From Thioalkalivibrio sp. ALMg11 (GTDB taxonomy: Bacteria; Pseudomonadota; Gammaproteobacteria; Ectothiorhodospirales; Ectothiorhodospiraceae), in the NCBI RefSeq assembly GCF_000377905.1, contig NZ_KB898879.1, forward strand, positions 1 through 64,000: a DNA stretch of 64,000 nt. Direction: 5' to 3'. Of the stretch, positions 36,673 through 39,981 are shown piece by piece (the first letter of the stretch is position 1; each line of letters opens with the position of its first letter). Made by a program: the position numbers and the translations under genes. The notes below the pieces were generated by a model, which was not told the origin of the DNA, ran no database searches, and worked only from the letters and a program-made list of their open reading frames with translations.

Positions 36673-37380
36673 TCAGGCGTCCGGGGGTGTCGTCAGCAGG
36701 GTCTGTGCGCGCTGGAGCAGCTCGGCGGCGGCATCGGGCTGTTCGCGCAGCGCGCGGCTCCAGTGGGGGAACAGGTTTTGTTCCTCGCGGCCCTCGTGTT
36801 TGGCCAGGGCGCCGGAGATCAGCGCGAAGAACGGGGCCACGGCCCAGGCCTCGTCCACGCCTTCGCTGAATTCGTGTTCCAGCATCGCGGTCTGTTCCAG
36901 GATTTCGTCGTGTTCGCGCAGCATGATCGAGGTCGGGTCCTGACCGTTCGGGCTGCGCGGCAGGTCCAGCAAGGGAACGATCAGCTCGTTTTCCACCTCC
37001 ACGTGGCGGCGCAGGCCGTCGACATAGGCGTGGAAGTCCGGCGCCGCGCCTTCGAGATCGCCGGCGTTGACCTTGTGCAGGGCACTGGCGAACAGCCGGT
37101 CGATGCGCAGGTGATCGCGTTCCAGCAGGTCGACGAGGTCCACGGGGGCGACGTCCTCGCGGCGTTGTACCGAGAGCTTCCACAAGGGCGGGCCGTCTTC
37201 GAGCACCTGCCAGTGGATGGCGTGACGCAGCTGCAGGCTGACCGCGTCCATCAGCATCTTCGGTTCCTGATCCAGCCAGACCTCGAAGACCTGACCGCTG
37301 CGCAGTTCGCGCAGGGTGTAGTACGCGCGGGTGTGGGCATGCTCGGCCAGGCCGCGGAGGTCGAGTACGAAATCAGCCAC
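36673..37380 (-). CDS. DUF2249-hemerythrin fusion protein
   Basis: The 235-residue protein has an N-terminal DUF2249 domain (FVLDLRGLAEHAHTRAYYTL, LWKLSVQRR, residues about 1-85). A hemerythrin four-helix domain follows (about 90-215). Candidate diiron ligands are in LLERDHLRIDRLF, LRRHVEVENELIVPLL, LREHDEILEQT and LAKHEGREEQNLFPHW. Such proteins are associated with nitric oxide or oxygen sensing and iron-centre repair. The GTG start overlaps the end of the upstream hemerythrin gene by eight bases, implying coupling. A longer GTG start at 37422 is possible. Confidence 0.85.
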   Translation of the reverse strand: MADFVLDLRGLAEHAHTRAYYTLRELRSGQVFEVWLDQEPKMLMDAVSLQLRHAIHWQVLEDGPPLWKLSVQRREDVAPVDLVDLLERDHLRIDRLFASALHKVNAGDLEGAAPDFHAYVDGLRRHVEVENELIVPLLDLPRSPNGQDPTSIMLREHDEILEQTAMLEHEFSEGVDEAWAVAPFFALISGALAKHEGREEQNLFPHWSRALREQPDAAAELLQRAQTLLTTPPDA

Positions 37381-37918
37381 GGTCTGCGCCCGTGATGCCC
37401 CGGCGTGCGGCCATGGCGGCACCGATGGCGCGGCGGTCTTCCGGGCTTAGCAGGTGCTCGGCAAAGGGGAGTACGGCGCGCTCTTCCAGATCGAGGTGGA
37501 TGCGGTATTGGTTTATCCACGCGTCGGCACCGTCGAGGTCCGCCGGCTCGCCCGCGGCGATGCGTTGCAGGGCCGGCTCCAGGCGATCCCAGCCGGCCTC
37601 GATCTCGTCATGCTCGGCGGTCAGGCGGTCCAGCCATTCGCACAGTTGCGGGTGACTCTCGGGGTGGCCGCAGTGCTGGCGCAGCACGGGGAACAGGTCC
37701 TGGTCCTCGTCCGCGTGGTGGTTGGGCGCTGCCTCGTGAAAGTAGTTCAGGACCCGTTGCGCGGCGCCTCGGGCCTCCTCGTCAGCGCCTTTGGCGGCCA
37801 AATGGGCGGGCAGGCGCTCGAGGATGTCCAGGGAGTTGAGGATTCGGCGATGGCAGGCCCGCAGCAACTCGATGGGCTGCTGGAATCCGGGAACACTTTC
37901 GTGGAGTTGCGCGTGCAT
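37373..37918 (-). CDS. Hemerythrin HHE-domain protein
   Basis: This 181-residue cytoplasmic hemerythrin-like protein has probable iron ligands in LLRACHRRILNSL, NHHADEDQDLFPVL, TAEHDEIEAGWD and YRIHLDLEERAVLPF. The four helices and spacing are those of the bacterial HHE family, which binds O2 or NO at a diiron site. The ATG of MHAQLHES has GAAGG about ten bases upstream. It is first in a two-gene unit with the DUF2249 fusion and divergent from the membrane/lipoyl/thioredoxin genes, with an FNR-type site between. Confidence 0.88.
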   Translation of the reverse strand: MHAQLHESVPGFQQPIELLRACHRRILNSLDILERLPAHLAAKGADEEARGAAQRVLNYFHEAAPNHHADEDQDLFPVLRQHCGHPESHPQLCEWLDRLTAEHDEIEAGWDRLEPALQRIAAGEPADLDGADAWINQYRIHLDLEERAVLPFAEHLLSPEDRRAIGAAMAARRGITGADRG

Positions 37919-37985
37919 CGGATATCGGACCTTCGCATGGTGGTCAAGAAGCAGGCGACTTTCGCCGAAGCGCTCGCGCCTCGTC

Positions 37986-37999
37986 TTGATCTCGATCAA
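37986..37999. promoter_or_regulatory. Perfect FNR/ANR/DNR-type binding site
   Basis: TTGATCTCGATCAA is an exact match to the palindromic consensus TTGAT-N4-ATCAA bound by Fnr/Anr/Dnr regulators. Its centre (37992.5) is about 41.5 bases from a start site near 38034, given a candidate -10 TATGCT at 38023-38028. This is the class II activator arrangement for the plus-strand genes from 38055. It could also act on the divergent hemerythrin genes. Confidence 0.8.
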
Positions 38000-38054
38000 T
38001 GTAAATCGAATATAGCTTAAAGTATGCTGTGCGAAACCTGCCCTGGAGCGTTTG

Positions 38055-38453
38055 ATGCACCCTCGGAACCGGATGTTCATCCTCGCGGCCCTCGCCTATG
38101 CCCTGCTGGGCGGGCTGCTCGGCATCCTCTGGCTGGCCCAACCCGGCCTGATCCCCGGCAATGTGCCGCGCATCCACGGCCACCTGATGCTGCTGGGGTT
38201 CGTGACCATGATGATCTATGGCGTGGGCCTGCATGTTCTGCCGCGCTTTTCCGGCCGTTCGCTGTTCTCCGAGCGCCTGGGGCATGTGCAGTTCCTGCTG
38301 GCCAATCTCGGGCTACTGGTGATGATCGCGGGCTGGCTGGTCTTTCATAACCCGACCGTCGCGGTCGGCGGGGCGATGGCCTGGGGGGCGATGATCCTGT
38401 TCGCGCTGAATATCGCACTCACCGTGCGTCACTACGGTCCGAAGGGGGCGTAA
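38055..38453 (+). CDS. Small haem-copper-oxidase-subunit-I-like membrane protein
   Basis: This 132-residue protein has four hydrophobic helices. The segment IHGHLMLLGFVTMMIYGVGL with HVLPRFSG after it looks like part of cytochrome oxidase/NO reductase subunit I (conserved His in helices). It is far too short for a catalytic subunit. It could hold haem or act as a small membrane partner. TGGAG lies seven bases before ATG. Its stop overlaps the next gene's start (TAATG), so the two are coupled. It is probably activated through the FNR-type site. Confidence 0.8.
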   Translation: MHPRNRMFILAALAYALLGGLLGILWLAQPGLIPGNVPRIHGHLMLLGFVTMMIYGVGLHVLPRFSGRSLFSERLGHVQFLLANLGLLVMIAGWLVFHNPTVAVGGAMAWGAMILFALNIALTVRHYGPKGA

Positions 38454-38905
38454 TGAGTCATACGGAATACAACGGCTGCGAGCTGCCGGACGACCTGTTC
38501 TACGACCTGGATTATGTCTGGGTCCGTCCGGAGGACGACGGCACCTTTACCCTTGGGATTACCGATCCCGCCCAGACCATGGCGGGCCGGGTGCAGTACT
38601 TCCGCTTTCGCAAGCCGGGTTCGCACCGCGCCGCGGGCAAGCCGGTGGCGCGGCTGGAGTCCGGCAAGTGGGCGGGGGGCATCCCTACGCCATTCGACGG
38701 CACCATCGAGCGCATCAATCCGGCCGTGGAGGCCGATCCGGGGCTGGTGAACGTGGCCCCCTATACCGATGCCTGGGTCGTGGTCATGCGCCCGGACGAT
38801 CCGGAAAAGGCGCTCGAGCGGCTACATACCGGGGCCGAGGCGATTGCGGGTCTGAAGCAATGGGTCGATCGCTACGAGATCCACTGCATGCGCTGCGCGG
38901 ACTGA
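38453..38905 (+). CDS. GcvH-like lipoyl carrier protein (LbpA-like)
   Basis: This 150-residue protein has the fold and order of glycine cleavage H protein, with the lipoyl lysine at Lys72 in ARLESGKWAGGIPTP. The ESGKW wording and the following VNVAPYTDAWVVVM resemble the lipoate-binding LbpA proteins of the sHdr sulfur-oxidation pathway more than true GcvH (from memory, not a search). It ends in a CxxC pair (EIHCMRCAD), which is unusual. No glycine cleavage genes are near. It is coupled to the membrane protein gene upstream and 10 bases from the thioredoxin fusion. Confidence 0.8.
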   Translation: MSHTEYNGCELPDDLFYDLDYVWVRPEDDGTFTLGITDPAQTMAGRVQYFRFRKPGSHRAAGKPVARLESGKWAGGIPTPFDGTIERINPAVEADPGLVNVAPYTDAWVVVMRPDDPEKALERLHTGAEAIAGLKQWVDRYEIHCMRCAD

Positions 38906-38915
38906 GGGCGGGATC

Positions 38916-39584
38916 ATGAAGGTAGAACTGCTGGTATCCGAGTGGTGCGCCTCCTGCCACGATGCCGAGCGCATCTGGCGCGAGGTGTCGGAGAATAAAC
39001 AGATCGACTTCGCGGTGGTGGACATGGGCCAGCCGGAGGGGCGCGAACTGGCGACCCGGCTGCGCATCCGGTCGATCCCCGCCGTGGTGGTCGATGGCGA
39101 GCTCAAGCACATCGGGCTGCTGGATCGGACGGCCGCGACCGAGTTGGTGGGGGCGGCCCCGGAGCGCACACAGAAGGCTGCTCGGCACGTCGGGCTGGGG
39201 CTGTCGGCCTCCAGCCGGGCCTCGGTGCTGGGCGCGATGATCTGGCTGCTGATTGCGGGTGCCGCGTTGCCACTGGGCGGGTTCTTCCTCGAGGGTGCGG
39301 CGCGTCCGGCCGCGCTGCATGGCTTTACCCTGGGTTTTCTTCTGTTGCTGATCATGGGGCTTGGCGAGCATATGCTGCCGCGCTTTACCGGACACCCGAT
39401 CGCTGGTGGCTGGCTGTGGGCCTGGACTCCGCAGGGCCTCGTGCATCTGGCCGTGCTGGGCATGGGGCTTGGCTGGATCCTGGGCGTTGCGATGTTGACG
39501 GCGGTGGGCGCGGTGGCGGCGCTGGCCGGGCTGGCCCTGTTCACCCTTCGGGTCGTCCCGCTGCTGGTACGGCCGTCGGTGTGA
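38916..39584 (+). CDS. Thioredoxin-domain membrane fusion protein
   Basis: The first 85 residues form a thioredoxin/glutaredoxin-like domain with active site WCASC (Cys11, Cys14) and a cis-Pro in RSIPAVVVDG. Residues about 94-220 are four hydrophobic helices. They include LHGFTLGFLLLLIMGLGE and HMLPRFTGHP, which mirror the His/LPRF pattern of the small membrane protein at 38055. The redox domain is at the cytoplasmic side if there is no signal, which is what is seen. This fusion could pass electrons between thiols and a membrane haem or quinone. I know no described homologue. Confidence 0.78.
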   Translation: MKVELLVSEWCASCHDAERIWREVSENKQIDFAVVDMGQPEGRELATRLRIRSIPAVVVDGELKHIGLLDRTAATELVGAAPERTQKAARHVGLGLSASSRASVLGAMIWLLIAGAALPLGGFFLEGAARPAALHGFTLGFLLLLIMGLGEHMLPRFTGHPIAGGWLWAWTPQGLVHLAVLGMGLGWILGVAMLTAVGAVAALAGLALFTLRVVPLLVRPSV

Positions 39585-39633
39585 GCTGCAGGCACGATAG
39601 AATTGCGTCTCGCGCAGCCAACGGAGTCCTCCT

Positions 39634-39981
39634 GTGAGTCTTTTCGAGAAGCGTATTAGCGAGCTGGAACAAAGCCTGCCGCATCTGGAACCAGGGGCAG
39701 TGACGCGCTGGCTCGAGGAAGGGGAACCGTTTCTGCTGGTGGATGTGCGTCAGCCCGAGGAGGCGGCCGCGGGGACTATCGAGGGTGCGATCAACATCCC
39801 GCGGCCCAAGCTGGAGGCCGGTATCGAGTCTCATATGGCGGATGCGGACCAGCCCGTCGTGGTGTTCTGTGGCGGGCGTGGCCGGTCCCAGCTCGTGGCC
39901 GACAGCTTGCGCACGATGGGTATCAATGCGTATGTGCTGCGTGGGGGCTACGCGGCGTGGCGGGAGGCCGAATCCCGGTAA
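39634..39981 (+). CDS. Rhodanese-domain protein
   Basis: This 115-residue single rhodanese domain has the active-site Cys in VVVFCGGRGRSQLVAD and FLLVDVRQPEEAAAGTIEGA. It has VLRGGYAAWREAE at the end. It probably carries a sulfane sulfur on the cysteine. The GTG start follows GGAG at six bases. The gene lies 49 bases after the thioredoxin fusion and may be last in the same operon. Confidence 0.88.
   Translation: MSLFEKRISELEQSLPHLEPGAVTRWLEEGEPFLLVDVRQPEEAAAGTIEGAINIPRPKLEAGIESHMADADQPVVVFCGGRGRSQLVADSLRTMGINAYVLRGGYAAWREAESR

Follow-up and report, generated by a model that had tools for sequence, protein, structure and literature searches.

What might a set of small redox genes, divergent from two hemerythrin genes, do in Thioalkalivibrio sp. 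ALMg11? The genes lie at positions 36673–39981 of a 64-kb stretch of its genome (contig NZ_KB898879.1, positions 1 to 64,000; hereafter the window). A first-pass annotation had read six of them as one module for low-oxygen or nitric oxide (NO) redox and sulfur chemistry. Families in the window were assigned from Pfam profile scores on open reading frames (ORFs), with curated cut-offs applied where they are named, and the six genes, their families, coordinates, divergent orientation and spacings all proved correct. As a joint module, however, only part of the set stands: the conserved core consists of three co-directional genes, hcoS, lbp3 and trxTM, while the six-gene extent and the rhodanese fall away. 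Sulfur-oxidizing bacteria carry these three genes as a small, apparently undescribed cassette. We consider it possible, if somewhat short of probable, that the cassette is an O2/NO-controlled accessory redox module of sHdr-LbpA sulfur oxidation, and it may give that pathway a way out for electrons. The earlier annotation had neither the promoter box nor the identification of the lipoyl carrier as an LbpA, nor the sHdr link.

The three-gene core and its lipoyl carrier

The first gene, hcoS (38055–38453, plus strand), encodes a protein of 132 amino acids with four predicted helices. It overlaps by 1 base with lbp3 (38453–38905, plus strand), which encodes a lipoyl carrier of the GCV_H family (E 5e-30; LbpA3, or Lbp3), and a gap of 10 bases separates lbp3 from trxTM (38916–39584, plus strand), whose Thioredoxin_3 domain carries a WCASC motif and is fused to a four-helix paralogue of hcoS. 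A search for hcoS in 369 genomes of the class gave some match at E 0.001 in 122; the 12 genomes with E < 1e-30 were counted, and the remaining matches (3.6e-8 or weaker), which are probably other COX1-family genes, were left out. The fixed order hcoS-lbp3-trxTM is found in 11 of the 12, and the twelfth (G192) has hcoS and lacks both of the other genes. Within the family, 15 of 47 genomes have a relative of lbp3 that is at least 65% identical; the best matches after these (about 50%) are LbpA-like.

Genomes of named species yielded 67 loci, of which 53 have a clear hcoS (profile E < 1e-20); the other 14 (L136–L149, weak hcoS) are left out of the counts. trxTM is present at 50 of the 53 and lbp3 at 38, and all three genes keep their order in 38/53. 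The nearest named locus, that of T. versutus AL 2 (L083), has an hcoS 99% identical to that of the window. By record title, the holders of lbp3 include Thioalkalivibrio, Sulfuriferula, Thiobacillus and Sideroxydans; Sulfuricella and one Gallionellaceae locus have hcoS and the membrane partner without lbp3, and a Gemmatimonadetes metagenome-assembled genome (MAG; L135) has a distant hcoS that stands alone. The genera that carry hcoS loci belong to groups of sulfur or iron oxidizers. The neighbourhood of the core is kept across relatives, as the idea of a conserved redox module had predicted. Its flanks in betaproteobacteria are housekeeping genes (glnA, ntrBC, xth and oligopeptidase A) and were dropped as a functional lead. 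In a single MAG (FK4.bin111; L105 and L121), two similar copies of hcoS-lbp3-trxTM are found per assembly.

By its sequence, lbp3 represents a third LbpA branch, LbpA being the protein that binds lipoate in the sHdr pathway of sulfur oxidation. GcvH is ruled out by the cut-offs of two gcvH models (79.8 against 115.85 bits and 96.9 against 117 bits) and by a tree of 84 sequences from the loci surveyed, in which Lbp3 (31), LbpA1 (21), LbpA2 (22) and GcvH (10) each form one group. Support is 93/89 for Lbp3, 99/93 for LbpA1 with Lbp3, and 100/100 for the three together against GcvH. The tree rests on few columns and has some long branches; its groups were labelled beforehand by motif (C[ML]RC for Lbp3), and the tree agrees with these labels. 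The lipoylation motif reads ESGKW or ESSKW in 31/31 Lbp3 rows of the tree and ESVK in 10/10 GcvH rows. In the protein of the window, LbpA3 would be lipoylated at K72 of its ESGKW motif, and the tail reads C145-M-R-C148; K72, C9, C145 and C148 are present in all 38 named lbp3 loci. In the 3.04-Mb genome of the strain, GcvH-like genes number four: besides lbp3 there is a GcvH, and LbpA1 and LbpA2 sit as a pair next to shdr. A weak fifth match lies inside a long ORF.

Resemblance to LbpA1 and LbpA2 extends to family, ESGKW motif, N-terminal GC motif, a tree that joins lbp3 to LbpA1, and mostly the same organisms. Unlike them, lbp3 is separated from shdr and sits in a cassette of its own that has an FNR/DNR box; it forms a third group with a CMRC tail and with thioredoxin (Trx) and haem-oxidase-like membrane proteins as neighbours. 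The shdr cluster of the strain is on a different contig from the cassette. Since no hdr-like cluster surrounds lbp3, we rejected its assignment to classic LbpA1/2 in favour of an LbpA-related branch. What is new is this third group with its new partners; the LbpA kind itself is known. The lbp3 of Thioalkalivibrio halophilus HL17 (L099/L077; G012) is just 65% similar to its counterpart in the window, has neither a hemerythrin gene nor a good box beside it, and groups with the lbp3 of a distant MAG (L132), and for these reasons it was likely acquired separately.

The association with sulfur oxidation was examined through sHdrB2, first in a draw of 369 class genomes that matches the earlier one in size and shares its genome identifiers. 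With a threshold of 466 bits, sHdrB2 is present in 22 of them (2 of 24 genomes, G309 and G375, were dropped, with 34–36% identity and less than 180 bits); 11 of these are among the 12 hcoS genomes and the other 11 among the 357 without it (Fisher 2e-14, kinship uncorrected). For the full cassette the figures are 10 of 11 against 12 of the 358 other genomes, with the same proviso on kinship. The one exception, G380, is about 75% complete; it apparently duplicates the MAG of L093, which would place it in both surveys. The survey of named loci covered the genomes of 40 of the 67, Thioalkalivibrio L083–L092 being among those left out; sHdrB2 was counted at 460 bits or more, and matches below 170 bits were not counted. 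It occurs in 20 of 26 lbp3 genomes against 2 of 12 genomes with hcoS and its membrane partner and no lbp3 (p 0.001, kinship uncorrected). The remaining two genomes lack lbp3 and trxTM, one of them (L134) with sHdr and the other (L135) without. The sulfur link first suggested for the locus is supported by the LbpA branch and by this co-occurrence.

In the accessible parts of PMC6067878, dihydrolipoyl dehydrogenase is named as the oxidant of LbpA by way of proposal only; a gene for that enzyme is not evident in the hdr-like clusters of bacteria, and why two LbpAs are needed has no explanation there. LbpA is mentioned only beside hdr in what was accessible of PMC6382920, and hemerythrin, NnrS and thioredoxin are absent from its main text. 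By titles and abstracts, a search of open-licence literature for further LbpA classes gave only unrelated papers. The cassette is not described in the open-licence literature searched, the coverage of which was incomplete, nor in the accessible text of PMC6067878, PMC6382920, PMC12423496, PMC10332631 and PMC1274295, in line with the earlier statement that no described pathway with this gene set was known. With one operon that brings together a third LbpA group, putative membrane redox partners to go with it and an O2/NO box, the question becomes open to test.

The promoter box and its regulators

The longest ORF of the hemerythrin gene next to hcoS (37373–38080, minus strand) had been taken to start at 38080. 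This is too far upstream, as orthologues with shorter N-termini point to ATG 37918, and with the start moved there a divergent promoter region of 136 bp (37919–38054) remains before hcoS. The region holds an FNR/DNR box, TTGATCTCGATCAA (37986–37999), 55 bp before the hcoS ATG. It is the only perfect TTGATNNNNATCAA in the window; shuffles had a mean of 0.01, and 1 of 100 shuffles had one. A candidate −10 element, TATGCT (38023–38028, plus strand), was read by eye and would possibly give the box the spacing of a class II FNR promoter, at about −42. In the whole genome, perfect boxes occur at six places and the reversed control pattern at none. Of the other five, one precedes ccoN, one a gene of the di-haem cytochrome c peroxidase family and one soxB (at a distance of about 385 bp; the gene is clipped at the end of the stretch and so scores under its cut-off), while the neighbours of the remaining two give no clear lead. 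The soxB box lies at G000:C4:255081 (L189) and the ccoN box at G000:C1:234397 (L185); together they hint at O2 control of thiosulfate oxidation itself.

A perfect TTGAYNNNNRTCAA box is also found 40–75 bp upstream of hcoS in 36 of the 52 named loci with enough upstream DNA, against a background of 0.26% in 10,600 random windows, which were drawn from the same loci, boxes included. Once nine near-identical Thioalkalivibrio loci are removed (by subtraction), the count is 27/43. A Crp-family gene, often the divergent gene itself by profile, occurs anywhere in the fetched stretch at 26/53 named loci, and in a comparison with solved structures that of L104 came closest to DNR (3dkw, 1.9e-47). The genome of the strain has three Crp-family genes over the cut-off; one of them is an FNR, which scores 254.6 bits against a curated cut-off of 228 bits and has an N-terminal Cys cluster. 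Both parts of an FNR/DNR regulon are present: the promoter holds a TTGATnnnnATCAA box, and the genome encodes a cognate regulator.

The box as read here fits both FNR and DNR and cannot by itself separate them; DNR binds an FNR-like box, according to the part of PMC1274295 available. The sensor may be FNR here, where FNR is over its cut-off, and DNR elsewhere, given the DNR-like neighbour in L104. Judged from the boxes, the DNR-type partner gene in other lineages and the FNR of the genome, the cassette is probably under the control of a sensor of oxygen or nitric oxide, much as the low-O2/NO part of the first-pass annotation had anticipated. A specific NO role fares less well: the genome of the strain, like G020 and G135, has a single COX1-family gene at E 1e-10 and so probably no NorB-type NO reductase, and a strict denitrification partner was rejected on the same count for the genome of the strain.

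Membrane proteins, proposed route and alternatives

hcoS has an invariant H41-x-H43 and an invariant H60. Its matches to COX1 (E 7e-6; 25.5 bits against 34.8) and to NnrS PF05940 (E 0.005; 16.7 bits against 28) both fall below the Pfam cut-offs. With 132 amino acids and four helices, where haem-copper oxidase subunit I has about 12, it was rejected as that subunit, and it was rejected as NnrS on its score. Likeness to CcoN of cbb3 and to NorB lies in the fold and in H-x-H, which in an 11-row profile aligns with the H-x-H of CcoN helix X; hcoS amounts to roughly a third of such an enzyme. Since the histidines of the CuB site are found in other helices of these oxidases, hcoS cannot be an oxidase by itself. 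A weak NnrS match recurs in 9/11 hcoS members, but the model has 371 positions and hcoS covers about 110. NO-responsive regulons include NnrS, a haem-copper membrane protein, according to the part of PMC1274295 seen. A phmmer search of a single hcoS sequence against PDB found nothing at E 1, whereas the 11-row profile did give a match; a viral fold library gave no hcoS match under E 0.5.

In trxTM, predicted membrane helices follow the Trx domain; fold comparison of the whole protein gave matches listed only to the Trx half. The domain begins at residue 1 and has no leader, so it is probably cytoplasmic. It is missing in 5 of 12 loci without lbp3 and in 0 of 38 with it (p 0.0004); the other 7 of the 12 keep CxxC and have lost the preceding W. 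Trx is thus lost only where lbp3 is absent, as if it served lbp3. The parts seem to depend on one another in steps, Trx on the membrane pair and lbp3 in turn on Trx, with lbp3 found mainly alongside sHdr. At five loci (L101, L110, L114, L118 and L124), from four MAGs of Sulfuricella and one of a betaproteobacterium, hcoS and a second four-helix protein are present, with neither lbp3 nor a Trx domain.

On the reading we favour, that of an accessory redox module of sulfur oxidation, low O2 (through FNR) or NO (through DNR) would switch on hcoS, Lbp3 and trxTM. Lbp3 would dock with the sHdr system or LbpA1/2 and accept electrons as dihydrolipoyl, possibly also sulfane sulfur. Dithiol and disulfide would then be swapped between the lipoyl group and CMRC tail of Lbp3 on one side and, on the other, the WCxxC of the Trx arm that trxTM would extend into the cytoplasm. 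Within the membrane, the four-helix parts of trxTM and hcoS would form a pair whose invariant histidines (hcoS H41/H43 and H60; trxTM H135 and H152) would bind b-type haem, and from there electrons would pass into the quinone pool. For this strain, the chain could end at the cbb3 oxidase, the only haem-copper oxidase found in its genome, whose gene also has an FNR box upstream, while the hemerythrins would sense or buffer O2 or NO. Such an outlet would add to the dihydrolipoyl dehydrogenase route proposed in PMC6067878, as far as that text was accessible.

A bolder form of this proposal, which we find rather doubtful, makes the cassette a new class of membrane thiol:quinone oxidoreductase: hcoS and the membrane half of trxTM would form a di-haem conduit, the Trx arm would unload LbpA3, and sHdr would feed the quinone pool directly when O2 is scarce. 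DsrMK, HdrDE and DsbB are membrane thiol:quinone systems, and the likeness drawn to them is one of proposed logic, from a cytoplasmic thiol carrier to membrane haem to quinone; unlike them, the cassette would use a lipoyl protein and a Trx arm in place of DsrC or CoM. If true, pieces of a respiratory oxidase fold would serve thiol chemistry.

Several observations weigh against placing the cassette in sHdr sulfur oxidation in this way. None of the 69 loci searched (two sets sharing some genomes; about 6–8 kb each side, shorter at contig ends) has an sHdr subunit gene, so the link is one of co-occurrence only. Six of the 26 lbp3 genomes lack sHdrB2 at 460 bits, all six being titled MAGs, with one completeness figure among them, about 75% (also G380), and the two lbp3-less genomes of 12 noted above do carry it. 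hcoS with its membrane partner and no lbp3 also occurs in genomes without sHdr, which implies that the membrane pair can act without the lipoyl carrier. Conversely, G192 has hcoS and sHdr and neither lbp3 nor trxTM, and 11 of the 22 sHdr genomes of the class have no hcoS, which is therefore not essential to sHdr. At the promoter, 15 of 52 loci score under 9 of 10 at the 40–75 bp position; in some of these the box lies further up (160 bp in L131; 233 bp in L080, on the same contig as L092). For hcoS, the scores of the haem-copper-oxidase-like fold are near the helical-bundle background, and the single-domain match to CcoN is weak (i-E 0.1).

The same parts could instead guard the lipoyl thiols of sHdr from NO, nitrosative or O2 damage, NnrS-like haem proteins binding or removing NO, Trx and Lbp3 denitrosating or re-reducing lipoyl, and the hemerythrins binding O2 or NO. 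The Crp-family genes at about half of the named loci, DNR-like in L104, would suit such a role, as would the weak NnrS matches of hcoS and the recurrence of hemerythrin and DUF2249 (which we take to be COG4309). NnrS and COG4309 both belong to predicted NO-responsive regulons in the part of PMC1274295 that was available. With a single COX1-family gene, however, the genome of the strain, G020 and G135 probably have no NorB-type NO reductase, and the regulator found here is an FNR with an N-terminal Cys cluster; we regard protection as unlikely, though worth keeping in view. Electrons might also flow the other way, from quinol through hcoS and trxTM to Lbp3 at low O2, and reduce sulfane sulfur or polysulfide, so that stored sulfur would serve as an electron sink or LbpA would be recycled. 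The anatomy and the promoter box would be identical in that case, and a Trx-fold arm would make a natural reductant. Lipoamide, however, is low-potential (−0.29 V in the accessible text of PMC6067878), so quinol-driven reduction of lipoyl would need an energy input, and no energy-coupling subunit is seen in the cassette, which makes reverse flow improbable.

That hcoS and the Trx protein help to fold CcoN or to load its haem or copper would account for the box upstream of ccoN in the same genome and for the resemblance of hcoS to CcoN. An assembly factor for cbb3 would leave the lipoyl carrier and the sHdr link unexplained, however, and the leaderless Trx domain is probably on the cytoplasmic side, so we hold this to be very improbable. 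The genes are small and their flanks differ between lineages, as would be expected of neighbours without a joint function, but the same order and box recur in beta- and gammaproteobacteria despite those different flanks, and Trx is lost only where lbp3 is absent; mere adjacency is hardly credible.

Hemerythrins, rhodanese and nearby genes

On the minus strand, the DUF2249-hemerythrin gene (ORF 36673–37422; DUF2249 7e-9, Hemerythrin 1e-14) has an inferred start at GTG 37380, its orthologues sharing an M/VADF start, and with the inferred starts it overlaps by 8 bases with the second hemerythrin gene (Hemerythrin 2e-17). Identity with the RIC/YtfE iron-sulfur repair protein was rejected for both (20.7 and 18.9 bits against the TIGR03652 cut-off of 204.7). 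A hemerythrin-like gene lies anywhere in the fetched stretch at only 18 of the 53 named hcoS loci, which does not agree with six genes acting as one unit, and the DUF2249-hemerythrin gene is a divergent partner that is not beside every cassette. In L134/L075 (G192), the hcoS that lacks lbp3 and trxTM adjoins a hemerythrin-like gene and a Crp-family regulator. At L066:8768–9643 (plus strand), beside a cassette, the hemerythrin encoded is longer at its C-terminus by about 100 amino acids.

The single-domain rhodanese gene (39634–39981, plus strand; Rhodanese 9e-18) follows trxTM after a gap of 49 bases. It was found only in the Thioalkalivibrio loci L083–L091 (9/53 named loci), and was rejected as a member of the module proposed at first, being a genus-level neighbour that is probably outside the core. 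A gene for a small membrane protein, presumably SirB-like, lies near the cassette in two lineages, at L069:9911–10279 and L070:10932–11372 (both minus strand).

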